This document shows, in pieces, positions 8,758 to 34,835 of a stretch of DNA of 49,669 nucleotides (position 1 is the stretch's first letter; each line of letters opens with the position of its first letter). The notes under the pieces were generated by a model. That model saw nothing but the letters and a program-made list of their open reading frames with translations. It made no database searches and had not been told where the DNA came from. The position numbers and the translations under genes are program-made. The stretch lies in the NCBI GenBank assembly GCA_030694905.1, contig JAUYTY010000020.1:1-49669 (forward strand). The letters run 5' to 3'. Source of the DNA: Eubacteriales bacterium. Lineage in GTDB: Bacteria; Bacillota; Clostridia; Tissierellales; Dethiosulfatibacteraceae.

Positions 8758-8859
8758 AAAAATGATTTTGAGATTGTAAAATGAATATTTCAATATTCGT
8801 GAAAAGGAGTATAATTGTTGTATGGTAACAAACAACGTCTTAATGGAATAGGGGTTCGT

Positions 8860-9837
8860 ATGTCTACAATAATAGCATTACAGGATCGGGATCTGGCTTT
8901 TGATATGTTTTTAAAGAATCTTGGCAACATGAATCTGACTGAGAGGTTGCGCCGCTCGGACAAAATTATCATAAAGCCTAATCTAACCGGAGGATCCTAC
9001 CTCTCCGAGTCTTCAGGCGCCATCACATCAAAGGACTTGGTTGAAAGGTTAATAGGCTATGTAACCAGAATCTCCCCAAATGCCGAGGTGTTCATATTGG
9101 AATCAGACAGCATCAACAGCGACCATGCCTATCTGAAATTTGAGCGTCAGAATTACGGCGAACTGGTGGAAAGATATTCTCAGGTCAGGCTATACGATGC
9201 CACAAGAAATGCGCTGAGGGATATTCCGTTCCAGGGCTTTCATTTCAAAAAAGCGATCAGGCTCGCAGAGATATTTGACACGCCGTTCTTTTTCATTTCC
9301 TTGGCAAAGGTCAAGACCCACGGCAAAGCTGTCTATACCGGCGTTTTAAAAAATCAGTTTGGTTGTTTTTTCCCGATGGATAAAAGCGCATACCACACAA
9401 AGATGGGCAAGGTCATTTCCGACATCAATAGCTTTATCAGGCCAGACCTGTCCATACTGGAGATGTCACCGGCCATGGAAGGAAATGGACCGCTGTATGG
9501 CGAAAAGGTAGATGTGGGTCTGATTTTCATGTCCGACAATCCACTGGCATTGGATCTGCTATTGGCAAAGAAAACAGGTCTTAATCGTTACAACATCCGA
9601 TATCTGAAATTCTGCAAGGCATCCATGAAGAATATCTACAGCATTCAGGCAGACACGATTGTCAACGAGGATCTTCTGAATCTGATACCCAAATTCAAAT
9701 ACATACCGCTATGGAACAGACTAATCATAAAAACCGGCATCATCATACAAAAAATAGGCTGGATAATCGAAATAGTCGGCAAGAAAATCCAAACAATGGG
9801 AGGGAAAAGGCATGAATCTAAGACTGAGGCCAAATGA
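8860..9837 (+). CDS. DUF362-domain protein
   Basis: 325 residues from the ATG at 8860 (ribosome binding site AGGGG). An in-frame TTG at 8815, itself behind AAGGAG, would add 15 residues. The protein resembles DUF362: an IIIKPNLTG segment near residue 37, LAKVKTHGKAVYTGVLKNQ around 150-170 and an FSD/MSDNPLALDLL-like segment near 230. I see no ferredoxin-type Cys cluster, which some family members carry. The C-terminus is hydrophobic/basic and could sit at the membrane. Molecular function is unknown. It is the first gene of the operon with the PqqD-like and HprK-like proteins and overlaps the next gene by 26 bp, so co-function is likely. Confidence 0.75.
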   Translation: MSTIIALQDRDLAFDMFLKNLGNMNLTERLRRSDKIIIKPNLTGGSYLSESSGAITSKDLVERLIGYVTRISPNAEVFILESDSINSDHAYLKFERQNYGELVERYSQVRLYDATRNALRDIPFQGFHFKKAIRLAEIFDTPFFFISLAKVKTHGKAVYTGVLKNQFGCFFPMDKSAYHTKMGKVISDINSFIRPDLSILEMSPAMEGNGPLYGEKVDVGLIFMSDNPLALDLLLAKKTGLNRYNIRYLKFCKASMKNIYSIQADTIVNEDLLNLIPKFKYIPLWNRLIIKTGIIIQKIGWIIEIVGKKIQTMGGKRHESKTEAK

Positions 9838-10228
9838 ACCAAATGTCATCAGTGAACCAATGGAGGGTGAGTTGGTCGTGATCAATCTTGAGACAGGATG
9901 TTACTATAGCTTGAATGAGTCCGCCGCCACCATCTGGCAACAACTGGCGGCAGGTCTGACATCGGCGGAAATAGCGAAGCAGGTATTTGACGGCACAGGC
10001 TATAATCCGGAAGATCTGTTCTGCAAAGTCGATAGCTTCTGCCAGTATCTGATGGATGAGCAATTGATGGTTGCCTCAAACGAGGATTCAAATAAAGTAG
10101 CAGCCCCTCCATTGGGCTTGTCATTCATCAAACCGATCATTGAGAAATTTGCGGATATGCAGGATATGCTGCTCCTTGATCCGATACATGAGGTCAATGA
10201 CAAGGGATGGCCAAATGAAGCCAAATGA
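9812..10228 (+). CDS. PqqD-like (RRE-fold) protein with C-terminal tail
   Basis: 138 residues. Residues 1-90 match the PqqD fold: a short beta hairpin with LVVINLETGCYYSLNE, then helices with SAATIWQQLAAGLT and the IAKQVFDGTG winged-helix part. PqqD-type domains are RiPP recognition elements that bind leader peptides for radical SAM enzymes. About 45 residues follow, ending in DMLLLDPIHEVNDKGWP, a tail PqqD itself lacks. No precursor peptide or lasso cyclase gene is next to it; the only radical SAM gene lies 13 kb away in another operon. Ribosome binding site GGAGGG. It overlaps the preceding gene by 26 bp and the following by 14 bp. Role here unknown. Confidence 0.8.
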   Translation: MNLRLRPNEPNVISEPMEGELVVINLETGCYYSLNESAATIWQQLAAGLTSAEIAKQVFDGTGYNPEDLFCKVDSFCQYLMDEQLMVASNEDSNKVAAPPLGLSFIKPIIEKFADMQDMLLLDPIHEVNDKGWPNEAK

Positions 10229-11231
10229 TATTGACTGGGGAATGTTTCCCGACAGAGGCACATTTGGTATTGGAAGAATGATAAGGATAAAGGATAAGTT
10301 CATACAAGTCCTTTTCCAATCAGAGAAAGATGCCAACAGGATCATGAGCCCCTTCCGACATCTGGAAACCGATTCGGATATGATTGGCGAGAGCTCATTG
10401 AGGATATATGTTTTTCAGAACATAGAGCCCGGCAATGATTTCCCCGTGTGGGAAAGCCTCAACCGGTGGGCTTCCGAGGGCGAAAAGCTTCAGATGTACA
10501 ATCGGGAAACGCGCCACATCCTATACAATGATGAGAGCAAGGTCCTGACAGCAATAGACACGCAATCAGCCGAGGCCTATTACTATATGCCATGTCTGGA
10601 TAGCATGCCCTATTATGAGAAAGCGGCACCCATGCGGATGATATTCCATCACTGGGCTCAATCCAACGGGATGCTCCTTATTCACGGCGCGTGTATCGGC
10701 CTTGGCGGAAAGGGCTTGCTGCTGGCAGGAAAAGGGGGCACAGGCAAATCGACAACGGCAATATCGGCGGCCTTGGCAGGGTTTGACTTCTTAGGCGATG
10801 ATTACCTGCTGGCTGACCCGACAGACCGGACGATACACAGCCTATACGGCAGCTCGAAGATACGATGGGACGCCACACAGATCTTGCCGGTTGCCGGAAC
10901 ATTGACCGTCAATCGAAGGGAAGAAGATGAAAAGGGCATCTTTTTTCTAAAGGATGTGGAAAGCTGCAGACTGTCAAAATCATTGATGCTTGGAGCCGTA
11001 ATCCTTCCGAAAATCGGAGGAGGACAGCTATCCACTTACAATAGGACGACCATGACAGAGGGACTGATGCCTCTGGCTTCAAGCACCATATTCCAGATGC
11101 CCGGCAGCGGAAAAGAGACACTAAACGCCATTTCAAGTCTGCTCAAGGGTATTCCTGTCTTCAGAATGTCCCTGAGCCAGGATACCGATGAGATCAACAG
11201 CAAGCTGAGAGAAATAATATCGAATCTATAG
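10215..11231 (+). CDS. HPr-kinase-like P-loop protein
   Basis: 338 residues from the ATG at 10215, which overlaps the pqqD-like stop by 14 bp; the frame is open 75 bp further upstream but that part is inside the PqqD gene. The C-terminal half carries Walker A GKGGTGKST (residues 172-180) and DFLGDDYLLAD (about 191-201), which matches the nucleotide and acidic motifs of HprK-type serine kinases. The N-terminal ~140 residues are family-variable. Such HprK-like proteins often lie next to PqqD-like and nucleotidyltransferase-like genes in exopolysaccharide or RiPP loci; phosphorylation of a peptide or small molecule is inferred, not shown. A true carbon-regulatory HPr kinase is unlikely in this context. 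Confidence 0.78.
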   Translation: MKPNDIDWGMFPDRGTFGIGRMIRIKDKFIQVLFQSEKDANRIMSPFRHLETDSDMIGESSLRIYVFQNIEPGNDFPVWESLNRWASEGEKLQMYNRETRHILYNDESKVLTAIDTQSAEAYYYMPCLDSMPYYEKAAPMRMIFHHWAQSNGMLLIHGACIGLGGKGLLLAGKGGTGKSTTAISAALAGFDFLGDDYLLADPTDRTIHSLYGSSKIRWDATQILPVAGTLTVNRREEDEKGIFFLKDVESCRLSKSLMLGAVILPKIGGGQLSTYNRTTMTEGLMPLASSTIFQMPGSGKETLNAISSLLKGIPVFRMSLSQDTDEINSKLREIISNL

Positions 11232-11240
11232 GGGTTAACC

Positions 11241-12614
11241 ATGATCAGACCAACTGTAAGCGTTATTATACCCATCTTCAACGGAGAAAAATACATCAGG
11301 CAGACCATAGAAAGCATCATAGCCCAGGATCATGACAGCTGTGAAATCATTGTGGTTGATGATGGATCAACAGATACGACCGGAGATATTATAAGTGAAT
11401 TTCCCCATATCAGATATTTCCGCCAGGAAAACAAAGGCGTTGCCGCTGCCAGAAATTCAGGCATCCAAAAGGCTTTTGGAGATTACCTGGCTTTCATCGA
11501 TGCGGATGATCTGTGGGACAGCGCCAAGCTGTCCAAACAGCTTGCATTCATGGTCGAACACCCGCAAATCGGCTATACATTCACCAGACACACCCTGTTT
11601 CTTTCAGAGGATATGGAGGCCATGCCCGACTGGGTCAGACCTGATTACGCGGAGGCAGAACTGACCGCCTATATTCCCAGCTCCATGATGATCAAGAGAG
11701 ATGTTTTTATCAGAATCGGATACTTTGACGAGAGCTTTGTCCTGTCAGAAGACAGCGACTGGTTCATGAGAGCAAGAGATCTGGGAATCCAGATGGCAGT
11801 CATCCCTGAAAACCTGTTGTTGAAACGGATCCATAGCGCCAATCTGTCCGGGGACACCTTGAAAACCCAGAATAGCCTGATGAGGGCAATCAAGAATTCA
11901 ATCGTCAGAAACAAAAAGAAAGGAAAGATAAGCGTCATTATCCCCGTCCACAACGGAGAAAAATACCTGTCAGAGGCCATAGATAGTGTATTGGCGCAGA
12001 CACTCAGACCATATGAAATCATCGTTGTCAATGACGGTTCCATAGATAAAACCGAAGACATATGCAAAGGATACGGCGATAAGATCAGGTATGCCAGCCA
12101 GGAAAACAAAGGCGCGGCTTCTGCCAGAAACACAGGCATAAAGCTGGCTGAGGGGGAATATCTTTCATTCTTGGACGCCGATGACCTGTGGTCGGAAAGC
12201 CGGCTGAGTCAGGGAATGGAAGCGATGAAAAAGGACCCTTCAATTGCCATGACATTCGGCATGGTGGCGGAATTCTACAGCCCTGAAACGGATGAGGCCT
12301 TCAGAGACCGCTACAAATGTCAGCGCATTCCTTTGAAGGGAATTCATCCGGGCACACTCCTTATCAGAAAGGATGACATGATGCGTGTAGGACTATTTGA
12401 CGAGACCTTCAGGACAGGTGAGTTTTTGGATTGGTTCAACAGAGCCAATGATATGGGCTTGAAATACCTGATGACCGATCAGATACAAATGAGACGGCGC
12501 ATTCACTATACGAATCATGGGATCACTCAACAGTCCAGTAAGGAGGACTATCTAAGAATCGTCAAGGAACGGCTGATGAAGCGTAAAGGGGGCAAGTCCG
12601 ATGAAAACCGATGA
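11241..12614 (+). CDS. Tandem (two-domain) GT2 glycosyltransferase
   Basis: 457 residues containing two GT2 domains in line. Domain 1 (about 1-225) has VSVIIPIFNGEKYI, VVDDGSTDTT and the DXD-like FIDADDLW. Domain 2 (about 228-455) has ISVIIPVHNGEKYL, VVNDGSIDKT and FLDADDLW. The halves are clearly homologous, so the gene arose by internal duplication or fusion. Both DXD motifs survive, so both halves may be active, adding two sugars or acting as a polymerising pair (inference). AGGGG precedes the start; the gene follows the HprK-like gene by 9 bp and overlaps the nucleotidyltransferase gene by 14 bp. Confidence 0.9.
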   Translation: MIRPTVSVIIPIFNGEKYIRQTIESIIAQDHDSCEIIVVDDGSTDTTGDIISEFPHIRYFRQENKGVAAARNSGIQKAFGDYLAFIDADDLWDSAKLSKQLAFMVEHPQIGYTFTRHTLFLSEDMEAMPDWVRPDYAEAELTAYIPSSMMIKRDVFIRIGYFDESFVLSEDSDWFMRARDLGIQMAVIPENLLLKRIHSANLSGDTLKTQNSLMRAIKNSIVRNKKKGKISVIIPVHNGEKYLSEAIDSVLAQTLRPYEIIVVNDGSIDKTEDICKGYGDKIRYASQENKGAASARNTGIKLAEGEYLSFLDADDLWSESRLSQGMEAMKKDPSIAMTFGMVAEFYSPETDEAFRDRYKCQRIPLKGIHPGTLLIRKDDMMRVGLFDETFRTGEFLDWFNRANDMGLKYLMTDQIQMRRRIHYTNHGITQQSSKEDYLRIVKERLMKRKGGKSDENR

Positions 12615-13695
12615 AAAGCTGTTGCTACAGGCCATACTGGATCATGATGACCAGGTGTCGAAAGCCTGCTTTGAGAGGTGGGCAGAAATGACAGATCTGG
12701 ACAATATTGAAGGGGGAAGCTACAGACTGATACCGGCACTCTACAGAAGGATGTCCCGCATCAATGGCAATTTCACCTATCAGAACCGGATGAAAGGTAT
12801 TTACAGATATTTCTTGTATAGGAACAGTATGACCCTGCACAAAACCAAAGAAATCCTGCTTGTCCTCAACGAGAATCAGATTCCTTATGTGGTGCTGAAA
12901 GGCGGGGCATTGCTGGCATCCTATTATGAGGATAAGGGAATCAGACCCATGAATGATTTGGATATCCTGGTGGATGAGGCTTTCATCTCAAGAACCATCG
13001 AGCTTTTAAGGAGCTCGGGATGGCAACCTCAGGACGAGGAATCCTTGAGCGTCAATCACCATGCCGGGCATGCCATCACTTTTTTGAATGCAGACGGAAT
13101 GGAGCTGGACCTTCATTGGCACGTCATCTATCAGTGCTGCTGGGATGGAGCAGACAGCTCCTATTGGACGCATACAGAAAAGGCTTCATTGGCGGGTGTG
13201 GACATCAGCATTCTCAACCCCACCTTGCAGCTGTTCCACACCTGCGCCCATGGTCTGCGCTGGAACGAGCTCTCATCCATCCGATGGGTTGCTGATGCCA
13301 TGTCCATCATAGAGAAGCGAGAAAGAGACATTGACTGGACTGTATTCCTGCAGGAGACCAGAAGCAAAAAACTCACCTATACCATCAAAAAAGCTGTCGA
13401 TATACTCCGCAACGATTTCGGAGCCCAAATACCGGACAGCTTGTTGGTTGAGCTGGATAAGATTCCAGTCAGCGACATAGAAAGAAGGCTGCATGATGTG
13501 CTCAGCGGCACATCCAAATACAAATATGTCAAGATCAGATGGTACATCTATAGCCTTGGCATGATTGACAAGAGCCTCATCAAAAGAATAATCGGACTGC
13601 CATCCTACTTGCAGGCGGTCTGGAATCTGAAATCAAGAAAAGAGATTCTGCCTGCCATCATAACCAAGGTAAAAGCAAAAAAAGCCATTCAATAA
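12601..13695 (+). CDS. Nucleotidyltransferase-like protein (NTP_transf_5 type)
   Basis: 364 residues. The segment VVLKGGALLASYY (about residues 98-110) followed by RPMNDLDILVDE (about 116-127) is the GG/GS plus DxD pattern of the 'uncharacterised nucleotidyltransferase' family. Flanking conserved features include the LDLHWH motif near residue 165. The family occurs in exopolysaccharide, lasso-peptide and polyketide loci, usually beside PqqD-like and HprK-like proteins, as here; its substrate is unknown. It is the last gene of the rightward operon, 9 bp from the convergent TAXI gene, and no terminator is visible between them. Confidence 0.8.
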   Translation: MKTDEKLLLQAILDHDDQVSKACFERWAEMTDLDNIEGGSYRLIPALYRRMSRINGNFTYQNRMKGIYRYFLYRNSMTLHKTKEILLVLNENQIPYVVLKGGALLASYYEDKGIRPMNDLDILVDEAFISRTIELLRSSGWQPQDEESLSVNHHAGHAITFLNADGMELDLHWHVIYQCCWDGADSSYWTHTEKASLAGVDISILNPTLQLFHTCAHGLRWNELSSIRWVADAMSIIEKRERDIDWTVFLQETRSKKLTYTIKKAVDILRNDFGAQIPDSLLVELDKIPVSDIERRLHDVLSGTSKYKYVKIRWYIYSLGMIDKSLIKRIIGLPSYLQAVWNLKSRKEILPAIITKVKAKKAIQ

Positions 13696-13704
13696 ACAAG
13701 TGTT

Positions 13705-14751
13705 TCAGTTGATGACTCCCATTTCCCTGTAGTACATTTCCGCACCGGGATGCATTGGCACCATCATATTTTTTGACATGCTTTCTAGCGTTAAATCATT
13801 CAGATTTGCGTGGACAACTCTCATATAGTCCAGATTGTCTCCGATGGCCTTTGTCATTTTGTAAACCGTTTCAACAGAAAGATCCTTGTTTGCACCCAGC
13901 ATTGTAACGGAAGAGAACGCGGCTATATCACGATCAACGAAGCTATATGAGCCTTCAGGAATCATACCCTGACTGTAGCCGTATTTTCCACAAACGAAGT
14001 CAATGGCTTCCTGTTCTATCTCAATAATCGAAAGTTCTTTATTGATTGACACCTCGACAATCCCCGGTGTGGGGACTGATACCACAAAAAACATGGCATT
14101 GACAGTACCGTCAGCGAACATCTGAGCTACCTTATCCACGTTCACATAGTGAAATCTCATACCCCAGCCTTCTAAATCCTCAGTTGTTAATTCATAGGCC
14201 TCCAGCATCCTCTTAAATGCCGTGTGTCCGGAGCCTTCAAAAAGACCTACTGCAATATTCAGCTTCAACTTCTGATCAATAATTTCCCTGAGTGAGGAAA
14301 CGCCAAGGCTTTTATCCAATATCAGCTGAGAACTGGAGGGATAAAAGGAGGCAACACCTCTAATGTTTTCATGCTTTTCATCAAACATTCCAGTTCCTGC
14401 AATAGCTTCGAAGGAAATATTGTTGTGGAGCAACGCGAAATCCGATTCAGCCGCACTAAGTCGAATAGCATTAGAAACAGTATCACCTGGTGTTGTGTGG
14501 AGAACCGAGCCTTTGTAGCTGGTAATGAGGCATTCGGCTATTCCGTTGCTGATCATAAACCAAAGCCCGCTTGGTACGCCCTGTAGCAATGTCGTGGTTA
14601 GAGGTGAGTCATCAATCATGCCAGCTGTAGCAGATGGGTCAAGATCTGTCTGCAGGGTGGTTTCGCTATTGGGTGTGTTACTGCAGGCTGTCAGAATCAG
14701 ACACAGGATCAATAGCATAACTTGTAACCGGGTTGTTTTTTTCGTTTTCAT
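13705..14751 (-). CDS. TAXI-family TRAP solute-binding lipoprotein (copy 1)
   Basis: 348 residues. A lipoprotein signal peptide ends in the lipobox LTAC with Cys23, so the protein is predicted to be lipid-anchored outside the membrane. The body matches the TAXI binding-protein family: PSGLWFMISNGIAECL near the start and HPGAEMYYREMG at the very end. Known role: captures an organic-acid ligand for the fused TRAP permease. It is the last gene of a five-gene leftward operon. The start (AGGAGG, ATG at 14751) lies 74 bp inside the 3' end of the TRAP permease gene, so its signal-peptide codons are read in two frames. Confidence 0.9.
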   Translation of the reverse strand: MKTKKTTRLQVMLLILCLILTACSNTPNSETTLQTDLDPSATAGMIDDSPLTTTLLQGVPSGLWFMISNGIAECLITSYKGSVLHTTPGDTVSNAIRLSAAESDFALLHNNISFEAIAGTGMFDEKHENIRGVASFYPSSSQLILDKSLGVSSLREIIDQKLKLNIAVGLFEGSGHTAFKRMLEAYELTTEDLEGWGMRFHYVNVDKVAQMFADGTVNAMFFVVSVPTPGIVEVSINKELSIIEIEQEAIDFVCGKYGYSQGMIPEGSYSFVDRDIAAFSSVTMLGANKDLSVETVYKMTKAIGDNLDYMRVVHANLNDLTLESMSKNMMVPMHPGAEMYYREMGVIN

Positions 14752-16657
14752 CAGAAACCTCCTTTTGTGTTTTTGAGAGCTTTATCATATTTACATAAAG
14801 TAAGCTAACGACAAGTATCAATCCCGATAACAACACCAGGAAAGGCTTTCCCATTAGAGCAAGGATGGACGCAGCCAAGACTATAGCCCGGGTCAACGAT
14901 TTTATTTCAAAATTGAACCATCGACCCTCAATAGCCGCCGCCAGCAGCACCACACCGAAAAGTGAAGACAAAAATGCAAACCCGATTTCCATGGTTGAGC
15001 CATACATCAGAATTGCCGGATTGAACAAAAGGACATAGGGCAGAACATAGGCGACAGATCCCAACCGCATGGCATAGAAGCCCACCCTCATCGGCGGCGC
15101 GTCAGCGATAGTTGCTGCGGCAAAAGCGGTCAGAGCCACAGGTGGTGTGATGGTGGCCATTGTGGAGAAGAATAGGATGAACATATGGACGGACAATGGC
15201 AAAAAACCCATACGGATCATAATGGGCGCGCAAATGACAGCCGTTATGAGATAGGCGGAGGTAATGTTCATTGCCAGCCCCAAAAACAAAGTGATTCCCA
15301 TGACCAGCACCAAGGTTGCAGTGGCGGAATAGCTGGCCATGGACATGAGATAGGAGCTGAATTTGGCGCTGATACCGGTGATATTGATGATGCCTACCAG
15401 TATACCACAGGTGGCCATAGTGGAAAGGACAATGGCGCCTCTGCCTATGGCGGTTTTCAATATGTCTCCCAACACCGAAAAACGGTAAAGATTTCTTCCG
15501 AGAAAGAGATTGACCGATAGAATGACCACAATCGTCTCCAGTCCAACCCTAGAGGGACTCATACCCGCTGAAAGCCTGAAAACCATAAATGCCAGCGGTA
15601 TATAGAAGCTAGCGCCCTTAATCAGAATCGGTAGGATCGGTTTGATCTGACCCTTTATACCCTTGTCGATGGCTAGTCTTCTTGATTTGAAATCAATGAT
15701 GAAATACAACGAACAATAATAAAGAATAGCTGGCAGCAAGGCTCTTCGCGCTATCTCGCCATAGGGGATACCGACTATATCAGACATGATAAAGGCGACA
15801 GAACCCATTACAGGGGGCATGAAAATGCCGCCGGTGGAGGCGCAGCTTTCAACGGCGGCGGCAAATTCAGGCGAGTAGCCTTTTTCTTTCATGGCAGGTA
15901 TGGTCATGGTGCCGGTGGTTGTGACATTGGACAAAGGCCCGCCGGAGATCATGCCAAAGAGAGCGGAGGACACAACAGCGATTTTAGCCACACCGCCCTG
16001 ACTGGTACCGGCAACCATCGCTGCAAAATCAAAAAGAAAATTTCCCGCGCCTGACGTCAGAAAAAAAGCCCCAAAAATCAGAAAAATCATAATATGGCCT
16101 GAGGCAACGCCAATGGTGCTGCCCCAGATGCCGTAAGTCGATAAAAAAAGACCGTCGGTAATATATTGGATGGAAAAGCCCATATGCCCGAATCTGCCCG
16201 GTATATGCTGGCCAAAGGCTATATAGGCTATAGCTAAAAGGCACAAGCCTGAAAGCCATGGACCGATGACGCGTCGCGTCCCATCAAGGAGTAGAAACAC
16301 TGCCAATACACAAAAAAAGATATCAAGAAAGCTTACAGGATCAACAAAACCTATGCGGCGAACCAGACGCTCCAAATTTATGGCCATATAGAGGCTGACA
16401 GACAGTGAAGCCACCGCCAGACCTAGATCGATTATGGACACCCGACTGCTGTTTTTGGCACTGCCTCCACTGTATGAGAGAAAAATAATGGCAAAAAACA
16501 AGCCAAAGCTAAGGCTTTTATGCAGGAGGGAATCGATATTGACCATGGCGGCGACAATCATATAAAGAGCTGTCAGGATGGCCATTCCATCTCTAAGCAG
16601 CAAGAAATTTCCAGAGAGATTTCTTTTTTTGCTCCCACTCAATAGTTTTTCAGACAT
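14678..16657 (-). CDS. TRAP transporter fused permease (DctQM type, copy 1)
   Basis: 659 residues, almost entirely hydrophobic. The small-subunit part (about 1-150) is fused to the large DctM-type part. Typical large-subunit signatures: FGMISGGPLSNVTTTGTMT, MPPVMGSVAFIMSDIVGIPY, LGLAMNITSAYLITAVICAP and ITPPVALTAFAAATIADAPP. Known role: ion-coupled import of the ligand delivered by the TAXI protein. The start ATG directly follows the A-PCP-TE stop (GGAGGATTAGATG), a tight coupling. The last ~24 residues (from about ENEKNNPV) are hydrophilic and are encoded by the same DNA as the TAXI signal peptide in another frame; the other two TRAP copies lack this tail. Confidence 0.92.
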   Translation of the reverse strand: MSEKLLSGSKKRNLSGNFLLLRDGMAILTALYMIVAAMVNIDSLLHKSLSFGLFFAIIFLSYSGGSAKNSSRVSIIDLGLAVASLSVSLYMAINLERLVRRIGFVDPVSFLDIFFCVLAVFLLLDGTRRVIGPWLSGLCLLAIAYIAFGQHIPGRFGHMGFSIQYITDGLFLSTYGIWGSTIGVASGHIMIFLIFGAFFLTSGAGNFLFDFAAMVAGTSQGGVAKIAVVSSALFGMISGGPLSNVTTTGTMTIPAMKEKGYSPEFAAAVESCASTGGIFMPPVMGSVAFIMSDIVGIPYGEIARRALLPAILYYCSLYFIIDFKSRRLAIDKGIKGQIKPILPILIKGASFYIPLAFMVFRLSAGMSPSRVGLETIVVILSVNLFLGRNLYRFSVLGDILKTAIGRGAIVLSTMATCGILVGIINITGISAKFSSYLMSMASYSATATLVLVMGITLFLGLAMNITSAYLITAVICAPIMIRMGFLPLSVHMFILFFSTMATITPPVALTAFAAATIADAPPMRVGFYAMRLGSVAYVLPYVLLFNPAILMYGSTMEIGFAFLSSLFGVVLLAAAIEGRWFNFEIKSLTRAIVLAASILALMGKPFLVLLSGLILVVSLLYVNMIKLSKTQKEVSDENEKNNPVTSYAIDPVSDSDSLQ

Positions 16658-19228
16658 CTAATCCTCCATCAGTGCTGACAGCTTATGGGCAAGAAACTTG
16701 GAATTCTGGGAATCATTGATTTCAGTATGCCTGCAAGGCATTTCAATGAACTCAAAATCAGAGGCATTGCCCTTCCAAAAATCGACTGCCTGCAGATTCT
16801 GTATCTTGTCCTTTACGCTCTTGAAGTAATGTATCCTGCCGTTGTAATACTCCGGTCTGTACATGCCATAAGCATAGGCCAGGGGACCTTCTATGGCGGA
16901 CCTTCCGGTCAATTGACTCTGATTGCCCTGAAGGGAAGCCACATAGCGTTTCTTCAAACCTTTGTTGCGCAGGAGTGACATCATGGTGGCTGTCTTTTTA
17001 ACGACCAATCCGGGTATATGGGTCACCCTGTGGTCTTTCAATTCACCTAAGCTATTGACAAACTGCCTGGACAGCTTTCTCTTCTTGCCGGTGGCATAGA
17101 CAGAGTCAAACATGGCCAAAATGCCTACAACATAACCCCTTTGCTTCAGTCCGACTGCAATCTTGAACGCTAAAACCCCGCCATAGCATGTGCCACACAG
17201 ATTATAGGGGCCGATGGGATCCAGACTGACAATCTCATCCACATACCGCTCGCAAATCTGATCAAAGCTCAGTGGATGGAACCACCCCTCAGCATTCGGG
17301 TCAAAGCGCAAGCCATAGACTGGCCTGCTTTCCTCCATGAATTGAGCCAGATGGTGATAGGTCACCGCTTCTCCATCACCGGAATGGACGCAGATCAGCG
17401 GGTTTTTGTAGCCGGATGCCTTGATCGGGAACAGAAATTTGAAGTTGCCGACCACGCTTTCATAGTGGTCAATATAATCTGACAGCTCAGCGACGGTGCT
17501 ATTGTTGAAGAACACGTTCACCGGCACCTGAATGCCGTATTGATTCTCTATTTCGCTGAACAATGCGGCTGCAGCCAGAGAATCGCCACCAGCTTCAAAG
17601 AAATTGTCACTCAAGCCGATATTCTTCCTATTCAGGATGTTTTGCCAGGAGCCTATCAGAAATCGTTGGGTTTCAGTCAGCCCGTTAAATGGCGGGACAC
17701 CTGCCGATCGATCTGAAACAGTGTGCGGAGCCTTATCGGGATAGCGTGAAGAAAGCAGGCCAAACAGCTGCTTTCTCTGAATCTTGCCATTCTGTCCGAC
17801 AGGAATCTCATCAACGACATATAGCAATGAAGGCATCTTGAAGTGAGGCACCTTTCCAGTCAGATAACGCCTCAATGTATTGAGATCAGTCGTTTTGGAT
17901 TCCTTAGGCACGACAACCGCCCCCACATCCTCTGACCCATAGCGGTTTGGATAGGGGAAAACCGCCACCGACTTGATATCTTCATGTCCGAGCAGGAAGC
18001 TCTCGACCTCATAGGGGGAAACCTTCTCGCCACCCCGGTTGATCATTTCCTTGATCCGCCCGGTGATGAAAATATAGCCGTCTTCATCCACATACCCCAT
18101 GTCACCGGTATGGAACCAGCCATCGGTAAAGCATAGCGCATTGACCTCCGGCAGATTCTCGTAGCCGGAAAACACGCAGGGACCCTTTATCAGTATTTCG
18201 CCATCGACAACGCTCACCAGACTGCCGGCAGATATACCGACAGAGCCTTCCTTATACCCTTTGGGTGCGCCATAGGTGGTAGCAATCAGCTTGGTCTCAG
18301 TCATGCCATATGTCTGGATCACCGATGTTTTGAAGGCATCCTCCAAATATCCCTTCAGCTTTCCGGGAAGTGGAGCACCACTGGATCTGACAAATCTCAG
18401 CGATGTTATGCCCAAATCAATCTGATTATACTTCAGATAATCCGCCAGAGAATTCAAGACAGCAGGCGATGCCGTAAAAAGGGTGATGCCTTTGCTTTTG
18501 ATCATGTTGACGAATTCGTTGTGATTGAAGACATTGGTGATCATAACACACCCACCGGTAGACAATATCGCCAGCATAGCATTTATTGAAGTTAATTTTG
18601 ACATTTTAGTGACGATCAGCATCTTGTCATTTTCATTGTAGCCAAAGCTTTGCACAGTCGATTCGATACCGCAAAGATGATTTAATGTTGTTGTTGGAAC
18701 GATTTTTGGGGTGCTGGTGGTTCCGGATGTGGTGCTCAGATTGGCTAAATCATCAGTCCTGTAGCCAATATCGCCATATCGGACGGTCGCCGAATGGACA
18801 AGCTCAAAGGAACAGCTTATTTGCCCCATATCGCCCGACAGATCAAAATGAACAAGACCAAATCCAGAATCCCGGATAAGGGATGCCAGCTCCGGGTCAC
18901 TTTTATCTGTCAACAGGTAATCTGTGCTTAGAAGCGTTATATAATCGATCAGCCTCTTTCCTGCAAGATCCCTATCCACTGTGACCAACACATTGCATTC
19001 CATAATGGGAAGCGCCAGCAGACTTGTTGCCAGGCCGTTATCGGAAAGAATAGCGATTCGCTCATGTCCCTGGATATCATGCATAGCAATAAAGTCGCTG
19101 AAGGCCCTATAGACAACAGCGAAATCGCCATAGCTGGCACCCTTGCCGTCAGATTTCAGTACAGCGGGGCGACCCGGTTCGGTTTTTGCGTAGCTGAAGA
19201 TTTTGTTTGAGATGGCTTGATTGTTCAT
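16658..19228 (-). CDS. A-PCP-TE synthetase (adenylation, carrier, Cys-thioesterase), copy 1
   Basis: 856 residues, NRPS-like but without a condensation domain. Adenylation domain about 1-495: P-loop TTSGTTSTPK (166-175, with Ser where Gly is usual), YGMTETK (307-313), TGDMGYVDEDGYIFITGR (374-391) and catalytic Lys482 in NGKIQRKQL. Carrier about 515-590, with the phosphopantetheine serine Ser550 in EAGGDSL. Thioesterase about 600-856: nucleophile elbow CGTCYGG with Cys681, Asp708 in MFDSVY, His834 in PCRHTEI. Predicted action: ATP-dependent activation of a carboxylic acid, loading on the carrier, then release to water or an acceptor. No signal peptide or membrane segment; cytosolic. It sits between TAXI copy 2 (19 bp upstream) and TRAP copy 1. 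A cognate phosphopantetheinyl transferase is not in the window. The substrate cannot be predicted confidently. Confidence 0.88.
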   Translation of the reverse strand: MNNQAISNKIFSYAKTEPGRPAVLKSDGKGASYGDFAVVYRAFSDFIAMHDIQGHERIAILSDNGLATSLLALPIMECNVLVTVDRDLAGKRLIDYITLLSTDYLLTDKSDPELASLIRDSGFGLVHFDLSGDMGQISCSFELVHSATVRYGDIGYRTDDLANLSTTSGTTSTPKIVPTTTLNHLCGIESTVQSFGYNENDKMLIVTKMSKLTSINAMLAILSTGGCVMITNVFNHNEFVNMIKSKGITLFTASPAVLNSLADYLKYNQIDLGITSLRFVRSSGAPLPGKLKGYLEDAFKTSVIQTYGMTETKLIATTYGAPKGYKEGSVGISAGSLVSVVDGEILIKGPCVFSGYENLPEVNALCFTDGWFHTGDMGYVDEDGYIFITGRIKEMINRGGEKVSPYEVESFLLGHEDIKSVAVFPYPNRYGSEDVGAVVVPKESKTTDLNTLRRYLTGKVPHFKMPSLLYVVDEIPVGQNGKIQRKQLFGLLSSRYPDKAPHTVSDRSAGVPPFNGLTETQRFLIGSWQNILNRKNIGLSDNFFEAGGDSLAAAALFSEIENQYGIQVPVNVFFNNSTVAELSDYIDHYESVVGNFKFLFPIKASGYKNPLICVHSGDGEAVTYHHLAQFMEESRPVYGLRFDPNAEGWFHPLSFDQICERYVDEIVSLDPIGPYNLCGTCYGGVLAFKIAVGLKQRGYVVGILAMFDSVYATGKKRKLSRQFVNSLGELKDHRVTHIPGLVVKKTATMMSLLRNKGLKKRYVASLQGNQSQLTGRSAIEGPLAYAYGMYRPEYYNGRIHYFKSVKDKIQNLQAVDFWKGNASDFEFIEMPCRHTEINDSQNSKFLAHKLSALMED

Positions 19229-19247
19229 ACCTTACCTCTATTCCTAT

Positions 19248-20249
19248 CTAATCTAAGACGCCGATTTCCCGATAATACATTTCAGCTCCCGGATGCAACG
19301 GGTAGACAGATCCCAAAGGCATCGATCCACCTGTTATGTCCTTGAGAGAAGCATGAACATTTGCCAGGTAATTCAGATTCTCATGTATTGATTTGGTAAC
19401 CTTGTAAACCGTTTCCATGTCAGTATCTGCGGATGTTGCCAGATAGGATGAGTCAGACACGGTATGGATATCATAGTCCTGAAAGCTGTAGGTTCCCGCC
19501 AGCATGGTATATAGACCGTAGCCATGCTGATCCACCAGGACATTTAGCTTTTCAGTGTCAAATTCCAGCAGTAAAAGCGGCGTGCTGACAGCGGTTTCCA
19601 CCACAGGCGGGGCGGGGGATATGGTGAACAGGACCATGGCGTCAATCGCACCGTCGGACAGCATGGCGGATGAGTCGGTTTGACTTTTCGTCAGCATAGC
19701 GCACCCCCAAGCAGACATGTCATCAACAGTCAATCCGTAAGCCTCCAGCAATTTGATAAATGTGCCCTCCGCAGATGAACCAGGTGTGCCGACAGATAGC
19801 CTGATCTTGATTTTGTCGGTTATAATTTCCTCAAAGGTGGTCACACCAAGAGATTCCGATACCACAATCTGAAAGACAGATGGATAAAGGGCTGCAACGG
19901 CTCTCAAATCTTCGGATTTTGAGGCATGCGCCACAGTGTTGTGAATCAGGGCAAATTCCGCTTCCTTGCTGACCAGCCGGCTTATGTTGGAGCTGGAGTT
20001 GCCTGGTGTGATCTGGACGACAGATCCCGGATAGCTGATGCTGACGCATGCGCTTATGCCGCTGGTGATCATATCCCAGACGCCGCCAGGCGAGCCGCTT
20101 AGCATTGAGATGTCGATGGGAGATGTATCAAATGATGTGCCACCGGAAGTCGAAACGGTTGTGCCCGGACTGCTGGGAGCATTGCATGATGATGCGAATA
20201 TGATAACCACGATTAAAATTGCCACAAAATAAACATCAGATCTTTTCAT
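19248..20249 (-). CDS. TAXI-family TRAP solute-binding lipoprotein (copy 2)
   Basis: 333 residues with an N-terminal hydrophobic signal and lipobox ASSC (Cys22). TAXI features: GGVWDMITSGISACV near residue 56, PGNSSSNISRLVS, and the C-terminal HPGAEMYYREIGVLD shared with both other copies. It delivers a ligand to the TRAP permease encoded just upstream; the start (GGAGG, ATG 20249) overlaps the permease stop by 14 bp. The A-PCP-TE gene follows after 19 bp, so this pair belongs to the same transcript. It lacks the stretch equivalent to AGTGMFDEKHENI/AGTGVFETKHDQI seen in copies 1 and 3, a possible specificity difference. Confidence 0.9.
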   Translation of the reverse strand: MKRSDVYFVAILIVVIIFASSCNAPSSPGTTVSTSGGTSFDTSPIDISMLSGSPGGVWDMITSGISACVSISYPGSVVQITPGNSSSNISRLVSKEAEFALIHNTVAHASKSEDLRAVAALYPSVFQIVVSESLGVTTFEEIITDKIKIRLSVGTPGSSAEGTFIKLLEAYGLTVDDMSAWGCAMLTKSQTDSSAMLSDGAIDAMVLFTISPAPPVVETAVSTPLLLLEFDTEKLNVLVDQHGYGLYTMLAGTYSFQDYDIHTVSDSSYLATSADTDMETVYKVTKSIHENLNYLANVHASLKDITGGSMPLGSVYPLHPGAEMYYREIGVLD

Positions 20250-22143
20250 TGATAACCTCCATGGTTTTATGTTGATAATACAGATACACTAAGAGAACAA
20301 CAGCACCCGATGCAGCGGTCAATACAGGCTTCCCCGACAGGGCCAACAGACCAGCGACGGTGATGACGATCCTGTAAACCATATTCACTCTTCTCGAAAA
20401 CCACCAACTCTCCATACCCAGTGCCACAAGCCCCACCCCTATAAAAGCCGACACAAATGAAAACAGGATCTGACCCATCGAGCCGATCAACAGGATGGCG
20501 GGATTGAAGATAAAGACAAATGGCAGAATGTAAGCCACAATACCCATTCGCATAGCCATGAAGCCTACCGCCATGGGAGGCGCATCTGCTATGGTGGCTG
20601 CGGCAAATGAAGTCATGGCAACCGGTGGCGTGATGGTGGCCATGGCAGCAAAAAACAGGATAAACATATGGACGCTGATTGGCACATAACCCAAATTCAC
20701 CAGAATCGGCGCACACATGACAGCCGTAATCAGATAGGCAGAGGTAATATTCATAGCAAGGCCCAGAAACAGGGTGATGAACATGACAAGCATCAAAGTG
20801 ACAATGACAGAGACACTGCCGATTGACATGAGAGAAGAACTGAACTTGGCGGCAATGCCCGTGATGTTGACAACCCCTATCAGGATGCCGCAGGTGCCCA
20901 TAGTCGCCACAATCATGACACCTCTCTCGATAGATAGCTTAAAGGCATCGGAAATCCTGGCCGGATTCATGGGATGCTCCCTGTTCAAGAGATTGATGAA
21001 GATAATAATCCCGATGGATTCAAGCCCCACCCTGGATGGACTGATGCCCATCATGAGCCGGACAATCAGATAGGTCAGAGGCACAAAGAAACCAAAGCCC
21101 TTCTTCAATAGCGGCAGCAACGGTTTTTTATCATCGGGAAACAGGCCTTCGATTCCGATTTTGCGCGACCTGATGTCGATGGTGAAGAACAGCGCCGAGA
21201 AATAGAGCAGTGCAGGGAGAAATGCCATTCTTGCAACCTGGGCGTAAGGTATGCCCACCACCTCAGCCATCATAAAGGCCACTGAGCCCATGATGGGAGG
21301 CATGAAGACCCCGCCGACAGAGGAACAGCTCTCGACCGCAGCTGAAAAAACACTGGAATATCCCCGCTTTTTCATGGCCGGGATGGTCAAGGCTCCCGTG
21401 GTGGAGACATTGGCGATGGGACTGCCTGAAATCATCCCGAACAGAGCCGATGATACGATGGCTATCTTGGCCACACCACCCTTGCTGGAACCGGCAATGG
21501 CCGAAACAAAATCAAAGAGAAAATCACCTGCTCCTGATTTCAGGAAGAGACAGCCGTAAATCAGAAATATCATGATGTGGCCCGTTGCGATTCCAAGTGT
21601 GCTTCCCCATATGCCGTAATTGGAGAGAAACAGGCCGTCAACGGTATATAGCAGACTAAAACCCCTGTGGCCGAATTTACCCGGTATCAGGTGTCCGGAA
21701 AACATATACAGAAGTGCCAGCAGGCTAAGGGCAGGCAGCCATGGACCCAATACCCGCCTGGTTCCCTCGATGAGCAGGATGACAGTCAGGATTCCAAAAA
21801 AAACATCAGAGTCCAAAACCCTGTCAAGATAGCCATGGCGTTGAATCATCCGATCAAGATTCAGAGAGATATAGAGACTGACGCTGACAGAGGCCAGCGC
21901 AAGGAGCCAGTCATAAAATGGAACGCCATGGGTTCTTTTTGAGCCCGGTGACGCATAGCTTATGAAGATAATCGCAAAGAATGCACCAAGGCAGATGCTT
22001 CTGTGAAGCAATGGCTCAGGATAGAAAAGAACTGCCGCCATGAGATAGATGGCAATCGATATGGAAAGAATGTTCCTAGCCTTAAGAACGTTTTTGGGCA
22101 GTTGTCTTTTAATGCCGTTTTGCGTCAATGCAGTAAGCATCAT
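20236..22143 (-). CDS. TRAP transporter fused permease (DctQM type, copy 2)
   Basis: 635 residues, a full-length fused permease. Motifs parallel copy 1: FGMISGSPIANVSTTGALT, MPPIMGSVAFMMAEVVGIPY, LGLAMNITSAYLITAVMCAP and ITPPVAMTSFAAATIADAPP. Predicted ion-driven importer in the cytoplasmic membrane. It is the first gene of the five-gene operon; GAGGATAAA precedes ATG 22143, and a perfect-consensus promoter stands at 22227-22255. Having a second transporter ahead of a single A-PCP-TE gene suggests two imported substrates or a later insertion of one pair. Confidence 0.92.
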   Translation of the reverse strand: MMLTALTQNGIKRQLPKNVLKARNILSISIAIYLMAAVLFYPEPLLHRSICLGAFFAIIFISYASPGSKRTHGVPFYDWLLALASVSVSLYISLNLDRMIQRHGYLDRVLDSDVFFGILTVILLIEGTRRVLGPWLPALSLLALLYMFSGHLIPGKFGHRGFSLLYTVDGLFLSNYGIWGSTLGIATGHIMIFLIYGCLFLKSGAGDFLFDFVSAIAGSSKGGVAKIAIVSSALFGMISGSPIANVSTTGALTIPAMKKRGYSSVFSAAVESCSSVGGVFMPPIMGSVAFMMAEVVGIPYAQVARMAFLPALLYFSALFFTIDIRSRKIGIEGLFPDDKKPLLPLLKKGFGFFVPLTYLIVRLMMGISPSRVGLESIGIIIFINLLNREHPMNPARISDAFKLSIERGVMIVATMGTCGILIGVVNITGIAAKFSSSLMSIGSVSVIVTLMLVMFITLFLGLAMNITSAYLITAVMCAPILVNLGYVPISVHMFILFFAAMATITPPVAMTSFAAATIADAPPMAVGFMAMRMGIVAYILPFVFIFNPAILLIGSMGQILFSFVSAFIGVGLVALGMESWWFSRRVNMVYRIVITVAGLLALSGKPVLTAASGAVVLLVYLYYQHKTMEVINEKI

Positions 22144-22324: not shown

Positions 22325-23641
22325 ATGAATACCATCGAGACATTTGAACGGCTTTTCCCTTTAAACAGAAGCATCACAGGAAACGGTCTGAGGCAATCCC
22401 TGAGCATCATCGGCGAGCATATTCCGCTGAATATGATTGAGTATCCCACAGGCATGTCCTGTTTCGATTGGGAGATCCCTAAGGAATGGAATGTCAAAGA
22501 GGCCTGGCTGGAAGACATGGAAGGCAACCGAATCATCGACTTTGCCGACTGCAACCTTCATCTGCTGGGCTACAGCATACCGTTTCAGGGAGTGATAAGA
22601 AGAGAGGAGCTGCTGCCTCATCTTTATACGCTAAAGGATATGCCTGGCGCAATCCCCTACGTGACATCCTTTTACGAGGAAAGATGGGGTTTTTGTGTGC
22701 CCTATAACATATTCGAAAGCCTCGACCGATCACACTACAGGGTGCATATTGATACAGAGCTGAAACCCGGCAGCCTTACCATCGGAGAAGGCTATCTAAG
22801 AGGCAGGTCAAAACAGGAAGTCCTGCTTCACACCTACATAGGACATCCCTCTATGGCCAATGACCAGCTTTCAGGCCCTTTGACGCTGATGATGGCCTGC
22901 AAATGGCTGCTGGATCACCAAGATAGTCTCAACTTCAGCTACAGGATATTGTTCTGTCCGGAAACCATTGGGACCATCGCCTATCTGAGCCAAAATATCG
23001 AGCATTTGAAATCACATCTGATTGCGGGTTATGTGGTGGCATTCACTGGAGACAGGGGACAGCTGACCTTTAAAATGTCCAAAGACAAAAATTCCCTTGC
23101 CAATAGGGCAGCCCTGAATATTTTGAAAACCGGACATAGAGAGCACCAAATCATGCCATACACACCCTACGGAGCCGACGAGCGCCAGTTCAACTCGCCG
23201 GGCATCAATCTGGAGACGGCAGCCATCATGCGTTCCGGTCCCGGCCGGTACAAAGAATACCACACATCCCTTGACAACAGGGATATCCTATCGGAGGAGA
23301 GCATCAAAGACAGCGCAGGGTTTCTCATTGAGATCATAAAGAACATAGAGGCCAACACAGCCATCAGCCCTATCCACACCATGTGCGAGCCCAAGCTGGA
23401 CAAGAGAGGACTCTATACAACCCTTGGCAAAAACGGAGAGGACAAGTCATTGGGCAGGCAGATTCTGGCCATCTGGGGATTGTCCGACAATCACGATGAC
23501 CTTATAGCCATAGCGGATACCTTGCAGGTTCCGGCTTACAGCTTAAATCAAGCACTTCACAAAGCAACAGAAGCAGGCATCATTAGAACCGAAAGGGAGA
23601 GCGAACATGATACTAAGAGCAAAGAACAAAACCCTGTTTGA
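22325..23641 (+). CDS. DUF4910 M28-like aminopeptidase-fold protein
   Basis: 438 residues. It matches the DUF4910/DUF2172 'aminopeptidase-like' proteins found in polysaccharide loci. Candidate zinc ligands in M28 order: His174 and Asp180 in GHPSMANDQLSG, Glu213 in CPETIGT, an acidic residue in GADERQF (285-286) and His313 in EYHTSLDN. The N-terminal ~150 residues hold the inserted beta domain; residues ~370-430 look like a winged helix. No signal peptide, so cytosolic. The family's reaction is not established; hydrolysis or formation of an amide on a sugar or peptide is plausible (inference). It opens the rightward operon and overlaps the radical SAM gene by 35 bp. Confidence 0.8.
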   Translation: MNTIETFERLFPLNRSITGNGLRQSLSIIGEHIPLNMIEYPTGMSCFDWEIPKEWNVKEAWLEDMEGNRIIDFADCNLHLLGYSIPFQGVIRREELLPHLYTLKDMPGAIPYVTSFYEERWGFCVPYNIFESLDRSHYRVHIDTELKPGSLTIGEGYLRGRSKQEVLLHTYIGHPSMANDQLSGPLTLMMACKWLLDHQDSLNFSYRILFCPETIGTIAYLSQNIEHLKSHLIAGYVVAFTGDRGQLTFKMSKDKNSLANRAALNILKTGHREHQIMPYTPYGADERQFNSPGINLETAAIMRSGPGRYKEYHTSLDNRDILSEESIKDSAGFLIEIIKNIEANTAISPIHTMCEPKLDKRGLYTTLGKNGEDKSLGRQILAIWGLSDNHDDLIAIADTLQVPAYSLNQALHKATEAGIIRTERESEHDTKSKEQNPV

Positions 23642-24719
23642 AAGCATCATCACAGAGCGCCAGCAGGCAAACAGCCGTCTCAACCTGACGGAAACAGAGC
23701 GGCAGCAAGGCATACTGCTATCCTATCCAAGAAGAATCGTCGCGGAGCTGACCAACGCGTGCAATATCAACTGCATCATGTGCGGCAGGGAACACGCTGA
23801 TTTCAAGCCCTCTTTTTTTGATGCCGGATGGCTCAGGCTTCTGGAAGAGGCCTTTACATATACAGAGGAGATTGTGCTCCACGGATGGGGAGAACCCACA
23901 ATACATCCCGAATTCGAAAAGATTCTCCAATACCTGAACGGATTTCCACTCAGAAAGTATTTCTGCACCAACGGCACCACGCTGGACAAAATCCAGGATA
24001 TGATCTTCAGGCATCATGTGGATATCATGGCAGTGAGCCTGGACGGCGCCGACAGCCACACCAACGATGCCATACGATACGGCTCGAAGCTGAACGACAT
24101 CGTCAGAGGTCTAAAGGCCATCACACATCAAAAGCAGATCAATCACCTGGATTATCCCCATGTGAACTTCGTCTTCACAGCCATGAAAAGAAACATCAAT
24201 CAGCTGCCGGAAATGATCAGACTGGCATCGGAGACCGGGGTCACAGAAGTGAAGGCGGTTTATCTCACATCCTTCTCGGAGGACATGGACAGGGAAGCCC
24301 TCTACAGGGAAAGAGAAAGGGTCAAAGCCATATTCGACAAGGCTACAGAGTTGGCGGACGCAAACGGCATCATGATCAAGCTGCCCTACGTGCAAGGGGA
24401 TGATCCGGCGGGATCCATGGTCCACAGGGAATGCTTCTTTCCCTACAGGGATCTGTTTATCGGATCTGACGGCTTTGTCAGGCCATGCGTCAGCACCAGC
24501 GACGCGCTGTTTGACATCAGGGACCACAGTGATTTCAGCGCGATCTGGAACCACGAAAAACTCAGGCAATATAGAAATCAGGTCAACGATATTGAAAACA
24601 TGCCTGAGGGCTGCAGAAGATGCTACCATTCCACCTGCGCCAACTGGAACAAAAAAGCTTCCTTCATACAAACAGGCGAGATGTTTGCTCCTGAGTGGAA
24701 GCTAAATAACATCAAATAA
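23607..24719 (+). CDS. Radical SAM/SPASM-type enzyme
   Basis: 370 residues. The cluster motif is CNINCIMC (Cys52, Cys56, Cys59; CX3CX2C). GWGEPTIH and SLDGADSHTND are typical core segments. The C-terminal part contributes Cys276, Cys294, Cys336, Cys339 and Cys344, a layout fitting a SPASM/twitch auxiliary Fe-S cluster. SPASM enzymes modify peptides or sugars and amino acids by radical chemistry; substrate unknown here. The start (GGGAGAGCGAAC before ATG) lies 35 bp inside the end of the DUF4910 gene, so the two are co-translated. No precursor peptide gene is visible beside it; the only RRE-like protein (9812-10228) is in another operon. Confidence 0.87.
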   Translation: MILRAKNKTLFESIITERQQANSRLNLTETERQQGILLSYPRRIVAELTNACNINCIMCGREHADFKPSFFDAGWLRLLEEAFTYTEEIVLHGWGEPTIHPEFEKILQYLNGFPLRKYFCTNGTTLDKIQDMIFRHHVDIMAVSLDGADSHTNDAIRYGSKLNDIVRGLKAITHQKQINHLDYPHVNFVFTAMKRNINQLPEMIRLASETGVTEVKAVYLTSFSEDMDREALYRERERVKAIFDKATELADANGIMIKLPYVQGDDPAGSMVHRECFFPYRDLFIGSDGFVRPCVSTSDALFDIRDHSDFSAIWNHEKLRQYRNQVNDIENMPEGCRRCYHSTCANWNKKASFIQTGEMFAPEWKLNNIK

Positions 24720-28157: not shown

Positions 28158-29279
28158 ATGGTCATAATGGATATCCTGTCAACCAATCAGGGAGCCTACA
28201 GGCTTGTGAAAAACAGAGCCAGAATCATCAACCAAACCCACACAAACTATATTGTGTGCCCGGAGGGTGAATTCACCCAAAGCATTATCGACTCCGGAGC
28301 GCCTGTCATTTCCTATGATATCAAACGGGAGCTGGGCCTTTCCACCATGAAAGAGATTATGGCCCTTCTCAGAATACTGAAGGAATACAATCCGGATGTG
28401 GTGCACTCCCATAATTCCAAGACAGGCGCCATCACCCGCATGGCCGCTTATCTATATAACAAAAGGAACAAAAGGAAAATCCTGGTGATCCATCAGGTCC
28501 ACGGCTATTATTTCAACGGTGTTTCAGGACTGAAAGGCACTATCTATAAAACGATAGAAAAACTGCTGGCTCGGTTCACCGATGTATTGCTGTTCCAGAA
28601 CCTGACGGAGCTTGCCATGTCCCGTGGCATGAAAATGGACCGGCACGCGAGACTGGAATACATCGCAAACGGCATCAGCTTTGATGAGTTCGAGGGCGTC
28701 AGAAGGAATCAGCCAGATGGCGGCAATGTATTCAACATGCTTACCATCGCAAGGATAGAGCGGGTCAAGAATCAGCAGCAGATCATTGACGGACTGAATC
28801 TATTGGTAAATCTGCAGAACAGAAAAAATATCATGCTTTATCTCATAGGCGAGCAGAGCAACGACTACCATCAGGAAATAACCCAACAGATCCGCCGATA
28901 TCATCTGGAGAATCACGTCACATTCACAGGCATGCTGGATCGGGAAGCGCTCATGGGCTATTTCTCAAGGGGAGATCTGTCGGTTTTGACATCCATCAAG
29001 GAGGGAAAACCCAGAGCCATCATGGAGAGCCTTTATGTGGGCATTCCCTGTATCGGGACCGATGTGACGGGGACCAACGAGGTGATCATAAATGATTTAA
29101 ACGGCTACCTGATTCCACTAAATGATGCCAGCGCCCTGGCGGACAGGATCGCCCAACTTATGGACAACCCCGAGACAAGAAATAGGCTGTCTCAGAATGC
29201 GACAGCCTATGCCAAAGAGCACTTCGATGAAAGGCAAGTGATTGCCAGACTATTGGAATTGTATGAAGGCAATTTTTAG
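28158..29279 (+). CDS. GT4-family glycosyltransferase
   Basis: 373 residues from the ATG at 28158, chosen because AAAGGA lies 9 bases upstream; an in-frame TTG at 28125 would overlap the preceding gene. The N-terminal domain contains VVHSHNSKTGAI and HQVHGYYFNGV. The donor domain has IARIERVKNQQQIIDGL and ends with SIKEGKPRAIMESLYVGIP and GTDVTGTNEVI, the usual GT4 retaining-enzyme motifs. It is the last gene of the rightward operon. Its stop overlaps the end of the convergent TAXI gene (TTAG), so the 3' ends of the two messages are antisense to each other. Confidence 0.87.
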   Translation: MVIMDILSTNQGAYRLVKNRARIINQTHTNYIVCPEGEFTQSIIDSGAPVISYDIKRELGLSTMKEIMALLRILKEYNPDVVHSHNSKTGAITRMAAYLYNKRNKRKILVIHQVHGYYFNGVSGLKGTIYKTIEKLLARFTDVLLFQNLTELAMSRGMKMDRHARLEYIANGISFDEFEGVRRNQPDGGNVFNMLTIARIERVKNQQQIIDGLNLLVNLQNRKNIMLYLIGEQSNDYHQEITQQIRRYHLENHVTFTGMLDREALMGYFSRGDLSVLTSIKEGKPRAIMESLYVGIPCIGTDVTGTNEVIINDLNGYLIPLNDASALADRIAQLMDNPETRNRLSQNATAYAKEHFDERQVIARLLELYEGNF

Positions 29280-34791: not shown

Positions 34792-34835
34792 AGGATACTC
34801 CTCATATTTCATCAGACAACCTGTGTTTGTAATAC

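Follow-up and report, generated by a model that had tools for sequence, protein, structure and literature searches.

Leaders of lasso peptides carry a YxxPxL motif at positions -17 to -12, and the HprK-like kinase BsfK is strongly stimulated by BsfB1, a recognition element (RRE) protein; BsfK phosphorylates Ser3 of the precursor and features the motif H148-G163-G166-G168-K169-S170-D186-D187 (PMC10368454). HprK homologs phosphorylate a C-terminal serine and, in the lasso peptide pseudomycoidin, a nucleotidyltransferase places one or two hexoses on the phosphate (PMC8498205). The B1 protein PadeB1 binds its own leader at nanomolar affinity (PMC5067487). The window analysed here, positions 1 to 49,669 of contig JAUYTY010000020.1 in the Eubacteriales bacterium assembly GCA_030694905.1, contains a cassette of PqqD, HprK-like, tandem GT2 and NTP_transf_5 genes, and the open reading frames (ORFs) and family matches agree with the composition and position given in the original prediction. 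That prediction described the cassette as lacking a precursor, having sought a separate small gene, but the C-terminal tail of the PqqD protein itself resembles a leader and a core. The tail, approximately 34 residues in length, starts like a lasso leader and ends in the pattern DP[IV]H[ED]-...-GWP. We tentatively interpret the cassette as a self-contained module akin to those of ribosomally synthesized and post-translationally modified peptides (RiPPs), in which a single protein would unite the leader, the core and the recognition element. The genes and protein regions are as follows.

8815..9837, + strand: DUF362 gene (PF04015, 119.6 bits), overlapping the PqqD gene by 26 bp
9812-10228, + strand: PqqD-tail protein gene, 138 aa (PF05402 PqqD, 39.9 bits, cut-off 23.4)
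9812..10069, + strand: PqqD/RRE domain, residues 1-86, with a modelled lasso-B1-like fold (PF05402, AlphaFold, TbiB1 match)
10070..10123, + strand: variable linker, residues 87-104 (11% mean pairwise identity, 20 proteins)
10124..10177, + strand: leader-like half of the tail, residues 105-122, FIKPIIEKFADMQDMLLL ([YFW]xxPx[LIVM], then FxDM)
10178..10225, + strand: invariant end of the tail, residues 123-138, DPIHEVNDKGWPNEAK (DP[IV]H[ED] and GWP in 20/20)
10215..11231, + strand: HprK-like kinase gene, 338 aa from the ATG at 10215 (Hpr_kinase_C match)
11241..12614, + strand: tandem GT2 glycosyltransferase gene (PF00535 Glycos_transf_2, two stretches, 250 bits; DADD motif in each domain)
12601..13695, + strand: NTP_transf_5 nucleotidyltransferase gene (PF14907, 129 bits; MNDLDIL motif)

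The tight spacing first reported for the cassette is correct: the HprK-like gene starts 14 bp inside the PqqD gene, is separated from the GT2 gene by 9 bp, and the GT2 and NTP_transf_5 genes overlap by 14 bp. The ATG at 10215 is the best HprK-like start, and the ORF list also gives a longer form that begins with a TTG at 10140. The Hpr_kinase_C score (24.4 bits) is under Pfam's 33.3; the kinase motif is nonetheless complete. A relative from the same order (L003/L029) carries all five genes, identically arranged and likewise tightly spaced, which indicates that the cassette is not a chance arrangement; its PqqD protein has a C-terminal stretch in common with that of the window.

A gene set shared by 20 loci

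Scanning the window PqqD protein against genome contigs identified seven loci, in Clostridiales/Clostridia (L029, L032, L033), Cloacimonadota (L030), Desulfuromonas/Desulfuromonadales (L031, L034) and Alphaproteobacteria (L035); as they derive from metagenome-assembled genomes, single placements, such as that in Cloacimonadota, could be misbinned. A further locus (L036) resides on a plasmid of the cyanobacterium Crinalium epipsammum, the one record obtained in plasmid searches by either PqqD or HprK. In viral contigs, 53 pattern matches yielded no confirmed relatives. A 32-position tail profile (A2) matched 2/398 genomes in the phylum of the window, one of them the window's own, 5/297 in the Desulfuromonas phylum (six places), 6/398 in the phylum of the alphaproteobacterial genome and 1/124 in the Cloacimonadota phylum; the counts in the last three phyla include the genome of the starting locus, which in Cloacimonadota is the only one. 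The module is thus rare and scattered, a distribution that suggests horizontal transfer.

In all, 20 loci carrying the tail (the window, L029-L036 and L058-L068) were mapped with profiles built from the first loci. HprK and GT2 genes are present in 20/20 and NTP_transf_5 genes in 18/20; in both exceptions (L035 and L064), PqqD is encoded close to the end of a contig. This neighbourhood survey bears out the view of the original prediction that the genes act together. Gene order is not fixed. For instance, L036 features PqqD-NTP-HprK and L058 HprK-NTP-PqqD-GT2, and in L059 the GT2 and NTP genes lie a few kb away on the opposite strand. Natural HprK-GT2 fusions, 595-796 aa in length, occur in L032, L033, L060 and L063, suggesting that both enzymes work on one substrate. 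The DUF362 protein is an accessory to the module: with a DUF362 profile, its gene was found beside the module only in the window and L029 among the 20 loci.

The tail is associated with one HprK subfamily. An HprK profile derived from 15 loci was run on the phyla of Desulfuromonas and of the alphaproteobacterial genome (297 and 398 genomes), where 7 and 6 places scored at least 237 bits, and after a gap 4 and 14 places scored at most 78 bits. The 13 high-scoring places comprise 12 with the tail and one genome, G479, with a full module and a variant tail end; four of the 13 (L060, L063 and L068, with the tail, and G479) are outside the profile. Ten PqqD-like ORFs were found alongside the 18 low-scoring places, and none has the tail. 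Tail-less PqqD proteins neighbour other HprK types.

No separate precursor common to the modules emerged when 545 small ORFs, 20-129 aa in length, from the surroundings of the 20 modules were compared all versus all. Good matches were restricted to close relatives (L032/L033 and L066-L068), and the few others, with E values of 0.001-0.01, look like chance; no clear lasso-like small ORF was found.

Two loci show additional features. The NTP_transf_5 protein encoded beside the Crinalium PqqD gene (L036 6367-7431) reads PISNFHLL where the window has RPMNDLDIL, so that, judging from this motif, it may lack catalytic activity; the same locus has another NTP_transf_5-like gene at 14199-15473. Two similar-looking 371-aa proteins are encoded directly upstream of the module at L032 982-3222 and L033 7681-9921, and are probably the BNR-repeat (BNR_2) proteins found in the tally of neighbouring families.

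The PqqD tail and its recognition domain

The tail consensus, ExFxDMQDLLLLDPIHEVxxxGWP, is found in some form at the PqqD ends of all the first loci (the seven and L036); a literature search for 'DPIHEV' returned no paper. DP, H and GWP stay unchanged in all 20 tails, D occupies position -8 in 19/20, and 12 tails carry a strict [YFW]xxPx[LIVM] leader motif. When the tails are set in the lasso register, the residue at -2 is always L or I (20/20), and the invariant end starts near +1. Mean pairwise identity among the 20 proteins rises from 11% in the linker through 29% in the RRE and 37% in the leader-like half to 74% in the tail end (residues 123-134), although the tail was itself the means of finding most loci, so that part of its conservation reflects selection. 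In 8 genomes or records, the only strong tail is the one within the PqqD gene, and a single additional match, which is weak (E 0.06), spans only half of the tail. The genome of the window has a single PqqD.

The two halves of the tail can vary separately, as evidenced by G479 (L074, L100; PqqD at L100 8723-9331). Its tail retains YQPPVLNVYRDMAEVLALDP, whereas IHEV...GWP is replaced by PTPGVFDSLLKDPNA; the leader-like half is homologous and the end different. Besides PqqD and HprK, the G479 module contains two genes each for GT2 and NTP.

An AlphaFold model of the window PqqD protein, built with 19 natural sequences, has a mean pLDDT (predicted local distance difference test) of 84.5, with values of about 89-95 over residues 1-90. 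The modelled fold is lasso-B1-like: TbiB1 (5v1u_A) aligns with a Z score of 12.6 and a root-mean-square deviation of 1.6 over 84 residues, and is also matched by sequence (E 1.9e-14). The top fold matches (Foldseek, VIA-align 2) are TbiB1 and the lasso B1 protein 6jx3, both solved with leaders. The score against the NCBIfam lasso_PqqD_Bac model is 36.5 bits, relative to a cut-off of 80. In the tail, a strand (110-113) and a helix (116-120) are predicted (pLDDT 84 and 80 for the blocks in 101-120), while the end is predicted to be loose (pLDDT 53-56). Structural alignments are good over the RRE only (model residues 1-94); a single alignment, to NisB with the NisA leader (4wd9_B), reaches residue 117, which fits a predicted strand that would lie in the leader groove of the RRE.

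The HprK-like kinase model (pLDDT 88.1) matches phosphoenolpyruvate carboxykinase and HprK folds. Residues H157, K178, D195 and D196 are invariant, G172 is near-invariant, and the distances are as in BsfK. No PDB match was obtained for the NTP_transf_5 protein.

Possible roles of the tail

In the mechanism that we favour, the lasso-B1-type RRE would hold its own leader-like strand (the YxxPxL region) in cis, and the DPIHEV...GWP end would project as the site of action of the partner enzymes. The kinase would act first, followed by GT2 and NTP_transf_5, to yield a phospho/glyco-modified peptide that may either stay on the protein or be released by a general protease. Both the role of the tail end as substrate and the order of the steps are inferred. 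A narrower version of this proposal is rather doubtful. In it, the modules would represent a new one-piece RiPP-like class: the RRE would bring along a lasso-type leader and a core that is nearly universal, and the HprK-type kinase, the GT2s and the NTP_transf_5 enzyme would convert these, by chemistry on a non-hydroxyl residue (Asp, His, Glu or Trp), into a conserved glyco/phospho-peptide that is cofactor-like or protein-bound. When PqqD, HprK-like and nucleotidyltransferase genes occur together but no precursor is seen, it is tempting to discount them as orphaned remnants of RiPP pathways. The built-in, nearly invariant precursor-like tail brings one such set within reach of mass spectrometry on just four proteins, and would add a cis-fused leader-core-RRE layout, possibly along with a new peptide modification.

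Several observations weigh against the tail as a substrate. The strict leader motif is absent from 8/20 tails, and phosphorylation persisted when residues of YxxPxL were changed to alanine (PMC10368454), which cautions against over-reading a leader-like motif. The core-like end is nearly unchanging, unlike natural-product cores, which usually vary. Matches to the tail are absent from PDB, Pfam and NCBIfam. The association with one HprK subfamily is partly circular, since the loci come largely from tail searches and the HprK profile was made from 15 of them. Neighbouring genes were tallied by Pfam family for 98 of the 150 ORFs listed, and among the 25 most populous families none was a protease, cyclase or dedicated exporter conserved with the module. 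Finally, the window tail contains no Ser, Thr, Tyr or Cys from residue 110 onwards, nor at residues 105-109, and 4/20 tails, including that of the window, are alike in this respect. Lasso-type Ser/Thr phosphorylation of the tail cannot therefore be general, and Ser phosphorylation as a universal step was rejected. This leaves three targets for the kinase: residues of some other type, a sugar attached to the tail, or a different substrate altogether. If the last of these holds, the tail would be a docking or catalytic element.

This last alternative stands nearly level with the substrate reading, and is itself only a tentative one. The tail would serve as a docking, gating or catalytic element, and the enzymes would modify a sugar, a lipid or another protein; the leader-like strand would plug or tether the RRE, and the Asp/His/Glu/Trp end would bind or complete the active site of HprK, GT2 or NTP_transf_5. 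The invariant residues include ionizable ones (D, H, E/D) and no hydroxyl, the tail co-occurs with a single HprK subfamily, and the HprK-GT2 fusions suggest a complex. However, DP-H-E-GWP is kept across five phyla, while docking peptides are usually more tolerant of change, and a leader-like half with a separable end, as in G479, resembles a leader and core.

It is improbable that PqqD and HprK serve the glycan of the surrounding locus, the module modifying a surface polysaccharide or the product of the A-PCP-TE enzymes, as the original prediction had considered. The window is indeed a polysaccharide locus, containing glycosyltransferases, a set of sugar-nucleotide enzymes, Polysacc_synt (35706-37199) and Bac_transf (37190-38506), and two GT2 domains reside inside the cassette. 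In contrast, the module is often found outside polysaccharide loci, with quite different neighbours in L033 (glycine-cleavage genes), L035 and others, and no neighbour family is widely shared in the tally of 98 ORFs, where the most frequent, ABC_tran, accounts for 7/98. Neither a link to the A-PCP-TE enzymes nor a tie to surface polysaccharides is supported, and a literature search on PqqD, HprK and exopolysaccharide returned no paper.

A classic RiPP pathway with its precursor encoded elsewhere in the genome is very unlikely: the PqqD RRE is of the lasso-B1 type and a gene for a radical SAM/SPASM protein follows about 10 kb further on, but the genome, with its single PqqD, has no Transglut_core3 or Asn_synthase match, the RRE already bears a leader-like tail of its own, and no such precursor was found, there being no conserved small ORF near the module and distant small precursors not having been searched for directly across the genome.

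Downstream of the cassette, the window features two triads (13705-22143 and 29276-34812), each composed of an A-PCP-TE enzyme, a fused TRAP permease and a TAXI binding protein. The two A-PCP-TE enzymes are 47% identical to each other, and the window contains a third TRAP/TAXI pair (TRAP 49-55%, TAXI 38-45% identical). The pairing of an acyl-activating PCP-TE enzyme with an importer is unusual. A DUF4910/DUF2172/HTH_47 gene (22325-23641), also about 10 kb from the cassette and inside the glycan locus, overlaps the radical SAM/SPASM gene (23607-24719).

Comparison with known systems

Described lasso tailoring sets of the B1/K/N type include PadeB1/K of paeninodin, BsfB1/K and that of pseudomycoidin, the genes of which are named PsmK and PsmN. 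The module resembles these sets in the B1-type RRE, the HprK-like H...G...K...DD spacing and the nucleotidyltransferase partner (PMC8498205). A YxxPxL-like motif occurs in 12/20 tails, but as part of a peptide fused to the RRE, with no separate precursor found around the 20 modules. In contrast to the lasso sets, the leader/core-like peptide of the module is fused to the RRE, GT2 is added, and the place of a variable core is taken by an invariant tail end that has no conserved Ser. The absence of a cyclase and a protease noted in the original prediction holds genome-wide for the lasso-type enzymes: in the 99% complete genome of the window (G000), neither the Asn-synthase-like cyclase PF00733 (at E 0.001) nor the B2 protease PF13471 (Transglut_core3) is matched, and a lasso pathway was rejected for this genome. 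PF13471 occurs in 1/8 module genomes (G455), on a different contig from the module.

Membership in related kinase systems was ruled out by curated cut-offs. The window kinase scores 45.9 bits against TIGR04352 (HprK_rel_A, of the HPr-rel-A system; cut-off 200), and the kinases of L031, L061 and L066 are also below. Scores are likewise low for HprK_rel_B (TIGR04355, 33.2 vs 200), for HPr(Ser) kinase/phosphorylase (TIGR00679, 24.3 vs 240, despite the HprK/PEPCK-like fold) and for SynChlorMet ScmC/ScmD (TIGR04249 and TIGR04248, 24.5 vs 125 and 19.4 vs 100). HPr-rel-A is similar in having an HprK-related kinase, and such a kinase lies beside an NTP_transf_5-like ORF in L076; however, the genome carrying L076 (G648) gives no tail match.

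Mycofactocin and PQQ feature a PqqD-type RRE, an invariant core, a radical SAM partner and a separate precursor, and mycofactocin is glycosylated by the GT2 enzyme MftF. The GT2 of the window falls far below the MftF cut-off (137.8 vs 280). The fusion itself has a likeness in the borosin OphMA, in which a biosynthetic protein bears the core peptide at its C-terminus; the partner there is a methyltransferase, whereas in the module it is the RRE.

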